Shown: positions 19,347 to 24,041 of the stretch, piece after piece | Numbering within the stretch: the first letter of the stretch is position 1 | Layout of the letters: every line of letters begins with the position of its first letter | Assembly (NCBI GenBank): GCA_021816765.1 | Contig: JAKAXB010000014.1 | Span: 1 to 53,095, forward strand | Source of the DNA: Natronospirales bacterium | GTDB lineage: Bacteria > Pseudomonadota > Gammaproteobacteria > Natronospirales > REEB76 | Reading direction: 5' to 3' | Length of the DNA: 53,095 bases | Program-made: the position numbers and the translations under genes | Notes under the pieces: generated by a model | Told to the model about the DNA's origin: nothing | What the model saw: only the letters and a program-made list of their open reading frames with translations | Database searches by the model: none

Positions 19347-19593
19347 ACGCCATGTGCTTTGCAATGGACCAGTTGCGGGGAAACCCAGAGTAACCGAATT
19401 CAGTGCTCTCACCCCAGCTCTTGAACGAGGGTTAGAAAGTGCGCGGCCTGCAGCCGTCCTGTTCAGGAAACCTGGCTTTCCTGCCCCTGGGACAAAACCC
19501 CGGTTCCATTACTCGCGGCCGCAGGCCGCATAAACCAATGGTTGTTTCAGCAGGGCTGACATGGGCGCCGTCCGCTTCCGCTACACTGCATCC

Positions 19594-20595
19594 ATGCAAG
19601 ACGCATCGCCCTCCACCACACCTTATCAGGATCTGACACCGGACACGCTGCTGACGGCGGTGGAAAGTACCGGACGGCTCACGGACGGCACGCTGCTGGC
19701 GCTCAACAGCTACGAGAACCGCGTGTATCAGGTGGGCATTGAGGATCGTCCGCCGGTCATCGCCAAATTCTACCGCCCCGGCCGCTGGTCGGATGAGGCT
19801 ATCCTTGAGGAGCATGCCTTTCTGAAGGAACTCACGGAAGAGGAGATCCCGGTGGTGGCGCCGCTCCCCGGCACCGGCGGCGCAACGCTGCTGAAACATG
19901 CCGCTTACCGTTTCACGCTGTTCCCACGCCAGGGCGGGCGGGCCCCCGACCTGGAACGCCCCGAGCAGTTGGAATGGCTGGGCCGTCTCATCGGCCGCAT
20001 CCATGCGGTGGGCGCCGTGCGCCGCTTCGAACACCGTTTGGTCCTGAATGCGCGCACCTTCGGCCGGGAACCCCGGGCGTTCCTCTTGGAGAGCCGCTTC
20101 CTGCCAGCGGAACTGATGCCCCGCTACCGGGAGGTAACCGAGCTCTTGCTGGCCGGTGTGGACCGTTGTTTCGAGCGGGCGGGCCGGGTGCAGAACATCC
20201 GCCTGCACGGCGACTGCCATCCCGGCAACCTGCTGTGGACCGACGCCGGGCCGCATTTTGTGGACTTCGACGACTGTGCCACCGGCCCGGCGGTGCAGGA
20301 CCTGTGGATGCTGCTCTCCGGTTCCCGGGCGGACATGGAAGGCCAGCTCAGGGATGTCATCGAAGGCTACCGGCAATTCGCCGACTTCAACCCGGCGGAA
20401 TTGCATCTCGTGGAAGCGCTGCGGGCGCTGCGCATACTGCATTACGCCGCCTGGATCGCGCGTCGCTGGGATGACCCGGCTTTCCCGCGCGCCTTCCCCT
20501 GGTTCGACGGGCCGCGCTACTGGGAGGAGCACATCCAGGTACTGCGGGAACAGGTGCCCATGCTGGAGGAATCGCCCCTGGCCCTCGACCTGTAG
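19594..20595 (+). CDS. srkA: Stress response Ser/Thr kinase SrkA (YihE) family
   Basis: APH-type protein kinase of the SrkA/YihE family, linked in E. coli to resistance against stress-induced death. From the ATG at 19594 it has 333 residues (E. coli 328). The phosphate-loop-like LNSYENRVYQVG, the lysine strand PPVIAKFYRPGRW, the catalytic LHGDCHPGNLLW and the metal-binding FVDFDDC are all present, so it should be active. In E. coli yihE lies next to dsbA; here it is followed after 66 bases by the GNAT gene. A frame from 19561 would add only 11 residues. Confidence 0.92.
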   Translation: MQDASPSTTPYQDLTPDTLLTAVESTGRLTDGTLLALNSYENRVYQVGIEDRPPVIAKFYRPGRWSDEAILEEHAFLKELTEEEIPVVAPLPGTGGATLLKHAAYRFTLFPRQGGRAPDLERPEQLEWLGRLIGRIHAVGAVRRFEHRLVLNARTFGREPRAFLLESRFLPAELMPRYREVTELLLAGVDRCFERAGRVQNIRLHGDCHPGNLLWTDAGPHFVDFDDCATGPAVQDLWMLLSGSRADMEGQLRDVIEGYRQFADFNPAELHLVEALRALRILHYAAWIARRWDDPAFPRAFPWFDGPRYWEEHIQVLREQVPMLEESPLALDL

Positions 20596-20661: not shown

Positions 20662-21159
20662 ATGATCCGTCCCGCGAACCTGAGCGACCTCGACGCGCTG
20701 GTTCAGCTTGAAGCCCGCTGCTTTGACACCGACCGTGTGTCGCGGCGCAGTTTTCATTATCTGCTCACACGCGGGCACGCGATGCTGCTGGTGGACGAGG
20801 AACGCAACGGCTTGCGCGGTTATGCGCTGATTCGCTTCCAGGCGCGCTCGACGCGGGCACGGCTTTACTCCATCGCCATTGATCACGGGCATCGCAGCCA
20901 GGGCATCGGCCGCGCACTGCTCGCGGCGACCGAGGACACAGCACGTAAACACGGCGCCAGCAGCATGCGGCTTGAAATCCGCAAGGACAACCACGTGGCC
21001 GCGCGGCTGTACGAGAAAATGGGCTATCAGCGGTTCGGCGCCTATCTCGATTACTACGCCGATCACATGGACGCCCTGCGCATGGAGAAATCGCTGGTAC
21101 CACATTCGCATGCGGCCATTACAGGCAACGCCACACCGCCCGCCCACAGAGTCACATGA
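20662..21159 (+). CDS. GNAT acetyltransferase paired with RLAN ATP-grasp ligase
   Basis: Single-domain GNAT acetyltransferase of 165 residues. The acetyl-CoA pyrophosphate loop is GHRSQGIGRALLAA, preceded by the strand RLYSIAID and followed by MRLEIRKDNHVAARLYEKMGYQRFG, the usual motif B. In the families I know, the GNAT next to RLAN ligases is often fused to a papain-like or C39-like peptidase; here the chain ends about 20 residues after the GNAT fold. Its stop overlaps the next start by four bases (ATGA), so the two are translationally coupled. The acceptor is unknown: either the N-terminus of a ribosomal protein, as with RimI/RimJ, or a small peptide made by the ligase. Confidence 0.88.
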   Translation: MIRPANLSDLDALVQLEARCFDTDRVSRRSFHYLLTRGHAMLLVDEERNGLRGYALIRFQARSTRARLYSIAIDHGHRSQGIGRALLAATEDTARKHGASSMRLEIRKDNHVAARLYEKMGYQRFGAYLDYYADHMDALRMEKSLVPHSHAAITGNATPPAHRVT

Positions 21160-22646
21160 CCGCCGACCCTCCCCAACCCCAGACGGCCCCCACCCACATC
21201 ATCGTGGTGGAGAGCCGTGGCGATTGGCAACCGGAATTTCCCCATCATGTCACCGTGCTTGCGAAGGACTATCTCTCGCAGCATGAGTACTTCGCGCAGA
21301 AAGGCATCAAGGTCGTCAACCTGTGCCGCAGCTACAATTACCTGAGTACCGGTTACTACTGTTCGCTGCTCGCCGAGGCGCGCCGCCACAAGGTGGTACC
21401 GAACGTGAAGACCATCTCCGAACTCAGCAGAAAATCCCTCTACCAGCTCGAATCCGCCGACCTCGACTACATGGTGCAGAAACGGCTGCGACGACTGGTG
21501 CGTGACAGCTATGGCATCAACGTCTTCTTCGGCCAGTGCAGTGACACGATGCTCGAGGAAGTCGGCCAACAGGTGTTCGATATGTTTCCCTGCCCGTTGC
21601 TGCGCATCGAATTCGAACGCGATCAGAAATGGTCCATCAGCCGCATCAAGGCCTTCCATCTCAACCAGCTCAGCGATGTCCAGCGCGGACAGTTCGCTAC
21701 CGCCCTCAACAGCTACTTCAGTAAACGCTGGCACTCGCCCAGGACGCGCAACTCCGCGCGTTATGACCTCGCGGTGCTGTACAACTACAACGATCCCATG
21801 TCGCCATCCGACCAGCGTTTCCTGTCACGCCTGATGCGTTCCGGCAAGGAACTGGATATCAACGTGGAGGTGATTGAACGCAAAGATTACGCGAAGCTGC
21901 CTGAATATGACGCGCTCTTCATCCGCGAGACGACCGGCATCGGCAATCATACCTACCGCTTCGCCCGCAAGGCGGAAAACGAGGACATGGTGGTGATTGA
22001 CGACCCGAACTCCATTCTGAAATGCACCAACAAGATTTATCTCGCGGAGCTACTGCGTTCCCATCGCATCCCCCGGCCAAAAACCGTGATCGTGTCCGAA
22101 GACACGGTGGACTCACTGCCGAGCCAGATTCCCTTCCCCATCGTGCTCAAGATCCCGGATGGCTCCTTCTCCCTGGGTGTGTTCAAGGCCAACGACCCGG
22201 AGGAACTCAAGGCTCTGGCGGAGAAACTTTTCGAGGAATCCGACCTGATCCTGGCTCAGGAATTCGTGTACACCGCTTTCGACTGGCGCATCGGCATCCT
22301 CAACCATAAGCCGCTCTATGCCTGCCAATACTACATGTCCAGGAACCACTGGCAGATACTCAAGCACGAGGGCGGCGGGCGTTTCAAGGATGGGGATTCC
22401 CGCACGCTGCCGGTCGGGGACGTGCCCAAGCCGGTGATGCATGCGGCGCTCAGGGCCGCCCACCTCATCGGCGACGGCCTGTACGGGGTGGATATCAAGC
22501 AGAACGATAAGGGCGTGTACCTTATCGAGGTCAATGACAATCCCAACATCGAGGCGGGCGTGGAGGATGCCGTGCTCAAGGACGAGCTGTACCGCATCAT
22601 CCTCGGAGAATTCATCGCCCGCCTTGACCGCCGTCGCCCGGGCTGA
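21156..22646 (+). CDS. RimK-type ATP-grasp ligase with N-terminal RLAN domain
   Basis: Protein of 496 residues with two parts. Residues about 10-200 match the RLAN domain (HIIVVESRGDWQPEFPHHVTVLAKDYL, VNLCRSYNYLSTGYYCSLLAEARRH). Residues about 205-490 are a RimK-like ATP-grasp: YDLAVLYNYND, LPEYDALFIRETTGIGNHTYRFARKAE, NKIYLAELLRSHRIPRPKT, FPIVLKIPDGSFSLGVF and the metal-binding LIEVNDNPNIEAGVED. Such enzymes join a carboxylate to an amine using ATP. RimK itself adds glutamates to ribosomal protein S6, but the substrate of RLAN members has not, to my knowledge, been shown. It is coupled to the upstream GNAT and followed after 39 bases by a YihY gene. Confidence 0.9.
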   Translation: MTADPPQPQTAPTHIIVVESRGDWQPEFPHHVTVLAKDYLSQHEYFAQKGIKVVNLCRSYNYLSTGYYCSLLAEARRHKVVPNVKTISELSRKSLYQLESADLDYMVQKRLRRLVRDSYGINVFFGQCSDTMLEEVGQQVFDMFPCPLLRIEFERDQKWSISRIKAFHLNQLSDVQRGQFATALNSYFSKRWHSPRTRNSARYDLAVLYNYNDPMSPSDQRFLSRLMRSGKELDINVEVIERKDYAKLPEYDALFIRETTGIGNHTYRFARKAENEDMVVIDDPNSILKCTNKIYLAELLRSHRIPRPKTVIVSEDTVDSLPSQIPFPIVLKIPDGSFSLGVFKANDPEELKALAEKLFEESDLILAQEFVYTAFDWRIGILNHKPLYACQYYMSRNHWQILKHEGGGRFKDGDSRTLPVGDVPKPVMHAALRAAHLIGDGLYGVDIKQNDKGVYLIEVNDNPNIEAGVEDAVLKDELYRIILGEFIARLDRRRPG

Positions 22647-22685: not shown

Positions 22686-24041
22686 GTGCTGATGAACAGA
22701 ATTCAACAGGCATTCGACCGGCACGTCTGGCATGGCGATTTGCACTCCATGCCGGCGCATAAACGCGTGTTGATCTTCTGGTTGCGCATGCTGCAGTTGC
22801 TGATCCAGGATCTCGCCAGCGGCGAAATCACGCTGCGCGCCATGAGCCTGGTCTACACCACACTGCTCTCCATCGTGCCGCTCCTGGCATTCGTCTTCGC
22901 GATCCTCAAGGCTTTCGGCGTACAGGACAATCTTAAACCGCTGCTGCTCAACTTTCTCGCCCCCCTGGGAGGAAAAGCCGGGGAAATCTCGGCGAAAATC
23001 ATCCACTTCGTGGATAACGTAAAAGCCGGGGTACTCGGCATCATCGGTCTGCTGATCCTGCTCTACGCTATCGTGGCGCTGGTACAAAAAGTGGAGTCCG
23101 GTTTCAATTACGTATGGCGCGTGCGCGAAGTGCGTACGTTCAGCGAACGCTTCAGTCATTACCTGAGTATCCTGCTCATCGGGCCGCTGCTGCTGGTATC
23201 GGCACTCACCATCACCGCCACGGCGAGCAGCGACACGCTGGTGCAACATATCATTAACCTGGCTCCGCTTGGCTGGCTTCTGGTGCTGGCCGCCAGAATC
23301 CTGCCGTACCTGCTGGTCATTTCCGCTTTCACTTTTATCTATGCGGTGGTTCCCCACACCCACGTGCAGTTTCGCGCCGCACTGACGGGCGGCATCTTTG
23401 CCGGCATCCTGTGGGAGTTCGCCGGCTGGGCATTCGCGGTACTGAGCGTCTCCTCCACCCGCCTTACCGTCATTTATTCCGGCTTCGCCATCCTCATCAT
23501 GTTCATGATATGGCTGTACCTCTGCTGGCTCATATTGTTTGTCGGTGCGCAAGTGGCGTTCTACGTGCAGAATCCGGAACTGGTGCGTCACGCCCGCGGC
23601 AGCAGGGACATCGGTGGACGCACGCTGGAACGCGTGGCGCTGCACATCATGTATCTCGTCGGCCGCTGCTACTACGAAAGCAAGATGCCCTGGTCGAGGG
23701 AAGAACTGGCGCGCCGCCTGCGCGTACCCACCGACACCGTCCTGGACGTGCTCGGGCGCCTGCGCGAGAACGGATTGGTGATGCTGGTTTCCGGGCGCAT
23801 CCGCCGTTACGTACCGGCCCGCGATATGAGTACCATCACACTCAGGAATATTGTGAACGCCATGCGCCTCAATCCGCCGGGCGCCGAGGACGTGGATCGC
23901 TATCTGAACGTGGTGGCTTCCGTGGACGAGGTGATGGAAAAACTCGACCACGCCGTTGACAGCGCTCTCGGAGACATCACCTTGCGCTCACTTGTGGAGC
24001 AGCAGGCCGTCATAGACATCGCGGATTTGCGCCGTGCGTGA
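22686..24041 (+). CDS. YihY family inner-membrane protein with C-terminal winged-helix-like region
   Basis: Protein of 451 residues. Residues 1-300 are a YihY (formerly RNase BN) membrane domain of six spans, with ITLRAMSLVYTTLLSIVPLLAFVFAILKAFG, IVALVQKVESGFNYVWRVRE and the late LTVIYSGFAILIMFMIWLYLCWLILFVGAQVAFY. The nuclease name is outdated, since RNase BN is now known to be RNase Z; the true role is unknown. The C-terminal 140 residues include a helix-turn-helix-like segment (WSREELARRLRVPTDTVLDVLGRLRENGLVML). The GTG at 22686 is preferred because AAGGA ends seven bases before it; an ATG two codons later is the alternative. Confidence 0.88.
   Translation: MLMNRIQQAFDRHVWHGDLHSMPAHKRVLIFWLRMLQLLIQDLASGEITLRAMSLVYTTLLSIVPLLAFVFAILKAFGVQDNLKPLLLNFLAPLGGKAGEISAKIIHFVDNVKAGVLGIIGLLILLYAIVALVQKVESGFNYVWRVREVRTFSERFSHYLSILLIGPLLLVSALTITATASSDTLVQHIINLAPLGWLLVLAARILPYLLVISAFTFIYAVVPHTHVQFRAALTGGIFAGILWEFAGWAFAVLSVSSTRLTVIYSGFAILIMFMIWLYLCWLILFVGAQVAFYVQNPELVRHARGSRDIGGRTLERVALHIMYLVGRCYYESKMPWSREELARRLRVPTDTVLDVLGRLRENGLVMLVSGRIRRYVPARDMSTITLRNIVNAMRLNPPGAEDVDRYLNVVASVDEVMEKLDHAVDSALGDITLRSLVEQQAVIDIADLRRA

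Follow-up and report, generated by a model that had tools for sequence, protein, structure and literature searches.

Can a GNAT acetyltransferase and an RLAN-ATP-grasp ligase act together once the peptidase of their relatives is gone, and what would such a pair make? The question is raised by a two-gene locus in the window, the whole 53,095-nucleotide stretch of DNA analysed here, which makes up the whole of contig C12 in a Natronospirales genome of 2.58 Mb that is 99% complete. In principle, an ATP-grasp ligase couples an activated carboxylate to an amine, a GNAT transfers an acetyl group from acetyl-CoA to an amine, and papain-like domains of the DUF3335 and C39 kinds cleave or exchange peptide bonds. 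According to the Pfam text for RLAN, GNAT-peptidase and GCS2 neighbourhoods of this domain were reportedly described by Iyer et al. in 2009. The window locus shares the RLAN-ATP-grasp protein, the same GNAT type and the gene order with the RLAN/GNAT-DUF3335 systems (PF14401, PF11814). In those systems, however, the peptidase is fused to the GNAT, as is often the case for DUF3335 (2023 survey, PMC10318531), while the window has no peptidase in the locus or in the genome. The GNAT-only pair is a variant of the known RLAN family, which has already been described with a peptidase. In a limited literature search, neither a description of the GNAT-only subtype or of the phage unit reported below nor a described function of RLAN proteins was found.

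The four-base overlap of the two genes, pointed out in a previous sequence-only reading, is an ATGA in which the TGA stop codon of the GNAT (21157-21159) runs into the ATG start codon of the RLAN gene (21156-21158). It is retained in four genomes, the window and three congeneric MAGs, and suggests that the GNAT and the ligase are produced together. The GNAT matched Pfam Acetyltransf_1 (6.7e-18) and contains the acetyl-CoA loop RSQGIG (R78-SQG-I-G83). Its residues E105 and Y117 align with E103 and Y115 of E. coli RimI, which we take to be the catalytic residues, and its best solved relatives are the N-alpha-acetyltransferases Ard1, RimI and SSO0209. On a GNAT model derived from the fused proteins it scored 202 bits, compared with 50 bits for the RimI of the same genome. 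The frame stops 19 codons past the domain with no peptidase remnant inside, so that the end at 165 residues noted previously is indeed an end without a peptidase. The RLAN assignment of the partner was also borne out by the profile search, as PF14401 matched residues 36-182 (2.5e-52; 177 bits against a cut-off of 25), followed C-terminally by a RimK ATP-grasp domain (PF08443, 5.4e-12). The ligase residues K293, K332, D446, E458 and N460, at ATP and metal positions, are invariant in 39 relatives, and in the profile of these relatives residues 235-462 (profile positions) align with the RimK structures 5zct and 4iwx. Judged from their motifs, both enzymes look active. A structure of the ligase predicted from an eight-sequence alignment had a pLDDT of 53, too low to use. 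A ligase 98% identical is present in a 'Natronospirales' MAG, and further relatives in two Gammaproteobacteria MAGs.

Table 1. Positions of the GNAT-ligase pair, its neighbours in the window and the corresponding phage genes.
Feature	Position	Strand	Evidence or remark
RimI-like GNAT acetyltransferase, 165 aa, without peptidase domain	20662..21159	+	ORF, Pfam
RLAN + RimK-like ATP-grasp ligase, 496 aa	21156..22646	+	ORF, Pfam, invariant residues
RLAN domain (PF14401)	21261..21701	+	Pfam
Pre-ATP-grasp and ATP-grasp part of the ligase	21762..22643	+	Pfam, alignment to RimK structures
ATGA stop/start overlap	21156..21159	+	also present in each of the three congeners whose locus is intact
SrkA-like stress-response kinase, upstream neighbour	19561..20595	+	order-wide; context only
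YihY/BrkB membrane protein (C-terminal winged-helix; BrkB-Rrf2), downstream neighbour	22686..24041	+	order-wide; context only
Phage GNAT and RLAN-less ligase	L161:2496-3903, L164:2555-3867, L166:2493-3861, L168:2615-3876		

An artefact such as a contig break or a frameshift was rejected as the source of the missing peptidase: no break separates the genes, the frame terminates cleanly and the congeners show the same arrangement. The genome encodes one RLAN protein, and a whole-genome profile search returned no DUF3335, Peptidase_C39_2 or GCS2; a peptidase fused elsewhere to a closer GNAT partner, considered in the sequence-only reading, is thus not present among these families. No defence system was matched by PADLOC. 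The window GNAT shares its fold, the catalytic Glu/Tyr positions and the YY motif with RimI (S18-alanine acetyltransferase), but it is not the RimI of this genome, since it scored 85.8 bits against the TIGR01575 cut-off of 86.4 and a better RimI (123 bits) lies on C41. Likewise, the ligase has the ATP-grasp fold in common with RimK, and the RimK of the same genome is about 25% identical to its C-terminal half; in contrast to RimK, it carries the added RLAN, sits in a separate clade and scored 26.6 bits on the RimK equivalog NF007764, below the cut-off of 331. This canonical RimK is located beside a retropepsin-like protease (G000:C14:148316-149866, L112) in a RimK/RimB-type pair. As the genome has its own RimI and RimK, the window pair is additional to both. 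The spacings to srkA and yihY, 66 and about 40 bases respectively, are compatible with one operon.

Comparison within the order revealed how the peptidase disappeared. The arrangement srkA – GNAT-DUF3335 – RLAN – yihY is found in three same-order genomes (G012, G014, G016) and GNAT-DUF3335 – RLAN – yihY in a fourth (G015), all with a full-length DUF3335. At the same locus in the window and in the congeners G001, G007 and G008, the GNAT stops 18-33 codons past its domain and is then followed by RLAN. In the ligase tree, these four form a fully supported group next to G012, G014 and G016. Because the order relatives keep the fused gene at the same locus, the absence of the peptidase in the window genus is one in-place deletion from a fused ancestor, which agrees with the earlier proposal of a reduced form. 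Replacement of the GNAT by an unrelated one was ruled out, since the window GNAT groups with the RLAN-type GNATs; four tree rows for other GNATs, some of them translated from the wrong strand, were unreliable and left out of account. Within the genus, the GNAT domain had a dN/dS of 0.17-0.27 and the ligase one of 0.03-0.12; values well below 1 indicate that both genes are constrained by purifying selection, the GNAT less than the ligase. Loss of the pairing in close relatives, which the sequence-only reading would have counted against the system, is seen only in part. No RLAN protein was found in 6 of 10 congeneric genomes (52-97% complete) or in the sister genus, but every ligase of the genus with an available upstream flank has a GNAT alongside. 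The pair is patchy in the genus, not split.

About a fifth of the sampled genomes encode RLAN, 81 of 369 in the class and 72 of 398 in the phylum, whereas none of 14 well-known control genomes does. From those genomes and close relatives, 147 RLAN loci were classified with models built from the loci. A GNAT with a DUF3335 peptidase occurs at 96 of them, or 96 of the 124 GNAT-bearing loci. The sequence-only reading had taken the GNAT to be nearly always fused to a peptidase; fusion is the majority state, but 'nearly always' is too strong. A GNAT without peptidase was observed at 28 of the 147 loci; 27 of these are intact, and they spread over 13 families, so the window pair is no one-off. A Thiohalocapsa locus (L157) is an example of the fused form, and the cultured Dyella sp. 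S184 (L159) of the solo form. In a phylogeny of 143 ligases, the GNAT-only architecture requires 12 changes, at least 8 of them forced by supported branches. The GNAT-only pair is therefore a recurrent architecture with many independent peptidase losses, and no full DUF3335 was found elsewhere in the genomes of the GNAT-only forms within the class. Two solo GNATs (L140, L105) have lost the RimI tyrosine. The one broken locus (L113, G168) is a deletion product: after its first half, the GNAT continues in frame into mid-RLAN, and the ligase is broken.

The remaining loci have no GNAT. Fifteen carry a C39-like peptidase, 13 of them with a GCS2 ligase right after RLAN; one has GCS2 only, with neither peptidase nor GNAT; one has DUF3335 without a GNAT at a contig edge; and no partner was found at six, at least three of which lie at contig ends. 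The type II operon of C39-like peptidase, RLAN ligase and GCS2 ligase was seen at L062, L065, L066, L074-L076, L078, L082, L087, L089, L096, L099, L139 and L141, the peptidase being missing from L066. The window differs from this system in having no adjoining GCS2. GNAT and GCS2 were found together at none of the 147 loci. Since the type II loci form a single clade in the ligase tree, however, this exclusivity counts as one event and not as repeated evidence. Separately, three genomes of one genus, 6-6.7 Mb in size, encode two RLAN ligases each (L243/L244, L248/L249, L250/L251), one with a GNAT-peptidase and the other with a divergent solo GNAT.

Nine contigs were recovered from IMG/VR when it was searched with the alignment of the ligase. 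On four of them, phage contigs, the start of a ligase of 284-310 aa without RLAN is overlapped by a solo GNAT 143-165 aa long (Table 1). These GNATs scored 66-132 bits on the RLAN-GNAT model, compared with 50 for the RimI of the window genome, and the four ligases form one clade inside the RLAN family, on long branches and apart from RimK. The contigs carry phage genes for baseplate wedge, integrases, Sak4 annealing proteins and replication initiation; the two phage ligases tested have no PHROG. Within the class, the 81 genomes encoding this ligase are exactly the 81 encoding RLAN, so RLAN-less ligases are seen only in viral contigs. Further viral RLAN-less ligases without an adjoining GNAT are located at L162/L163:2977-3909 and L165:2917-3885, that of L162/L163 directly 3' of a 501-aa ORF among phage-like genes. 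On an AT-rich viral contig (L169:2986-4143, also L178), the RLAN of the ligase is cut to about its first half, possibly an intermediate towards the RLAN-less form. Further scans gave no more viral cases, and no further RLAN domain was confirmed in viral contigs.

The survey marks the dispensable parts of the system: the peptidase was repeatedly lost and the GNAT kept, and the phages keep the GNAT and the ATP-grasp part only. That the peptidase is lost most and the GNAT persists most favours synthesis of an N-acetyl peptide or amide by GNAT and ligase. We assign a probability of about 0.4 to the reading that the pair is a two-enzyme unit making such a product, in which a peptidase would serve for trimming or turnover and be unneeded for synthesis. 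The sequences establish the two enzyme families, the intact catalytic motifs, the conserved pairing, the loss of the peptidase in place and the purifying selection; from these we infer the reaction, the order of its steps, the small-molecule substrate and the role of the peptidase as follows. The RLAN-ATP-grasp protein would spend ATP on activating a carboxylate for coupling to the amino group of an amino acid. With acetyl-CoA as donor, the RimI-like GNAT would acetylate that small peptide at its free alpha-amine, or do so on the amino acid that comes first in it. The papain-like domain on the GNAT of the relatives may trim or turn over the product; being dispensable for synthesis, it could be deleted in the genus. 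An amino-acid ligation capped by acetylation, as put forward from the sequence earlier, is plausible. Synthesis is further favoured by the GNAT-less type II clade, which has beside RLAN the carboxylate-amine ligase GCS2, likewise an amine-acylating enzyme. The invariant ligase motifs, the alignment of the ligase to RimK, the closeness of the GNAT to N-alpha-acetyltransferases of proteins and peptides, and the low dN/dS of both genes also speak for it. On the other hand, RimK-family ligases modify proteins as well, so the sequence does not by itself point to a small-molecule product, and the GNAT may not always be active, given its faster evolution than the ligase in the genus and the loss of the tyrosine in L140 and L105.

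A known system with a comparable logic is Ngg/AsnO, also an acetyltransferase plus an amide ligase, whose classical operon includes a gene for a peptidase: Ngg acetylates the amine of one glutamine and links it to another, giving N-acetylglutaminylglutamine (PMC8070244). The analogy is not supported by homology of the ligase, which had no match to the Ngg model (TIGR03103); the window GNAT scored 30.8 bits against a cut-off of 569, the two genes of the window are separate, and no asparagine-synthase partner of the Ngg/AsnO type was seen with the pair.

Close behind N-acetyl-amide synthesis ranks RimK-like protein tagging, a tentative alternative in which the ligase would extend a cytosolic protein at its C-terminus by amino acids, the GNAT would acetylate the protein or the tag, and the papain-like peptidase of the relatives would remove the tag as RimB does for RimK. 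It draws on the best alignment of the ATP-grasp part, which is with the S6-glutamate ligases RimK, on the likeness of the GNAT to RimI and Ard1, both of which act on proteins, and on the pairing of RimK with a protease eraser, the aspartic protease RimB (PMC12239564). However, a canonical RimK with a retropepsin is already encoded at C14, the ligases with RLAN branch as a clade clearly separated from RimK, and the neighbourhood of the pair contains no conserved gene that could be the target. Moreover, with the eraser lost so often, tags could no longer be removed.

It is improbable that the GNAT is a regulator which acetylates the ligase, the ligase then being the enzyme and no pathway being involved. 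The translational overlap, the conserved position of RLAN N-terminal to the ATP-grasp part and a P. aeruginosa plasmid RLAN ligase without a nearby GNAT would fit this explanation, but phage ligases without RLAN still keep the GNAT, and the motif type is that of alpha-amine, not lysine, acetyltransferases. The plasmid gene (L170, NZ_CP133752.1, 3902-5491) is annotated as a RimK-family ligase, and neither GNAT nor peptidase was detected within 4 kb of it. Least probable is that the fused protein has left in the solo GNAT a remnant that is now decaying: dN is higher in solo GNATs than in the ligase and L113 is plainly broken, yet dN/dS is clearly below 1, frames, motifs and the ATGA overlap are intact in four genomes, 27 solo loci are intact and phages have a solo GNAT as well.

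Returning to N-acetyl-peptide or amide synthesis, the phage GNAT and ligase, which lack both RLAN and peptidase, point to the pair as the core, so that GNAT and ligase look like the working core of a peptide-making or peptide-tagging system. A three-domain system is thereby reduced to a two-enzyme reaction amenable to in vitro assay. It is rather doubtful, though conceivable, that this is a minimal, portable core for the synthesis of an N-acetyl peptide (or tag), which phages took up without RLAN and peptidase, either for the production of a small acetylated amide or for the modification of a protein of the host or the virion, the cellular pairs being the same core minus the peptidase.

Two further gene neighbourhoods were recorded. 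Divergently upstream of the fused GNAT-peptidase gene lie genes named by inspection of their sequences as argE-like (12 loci) or argA-like (7 loci), at L063, L071, L083, L090-L092, L117, L128, L131, L132, L134, L136 and L142; they possibly reflect a link between the system and amino acids in N-acetylated form, or simply ancient synteny. In addition, a DUF155 (RMND1-like) membrane protein gene is found downstream of RLAN at seven loci, including L070, L074, L093, L101 and L114.
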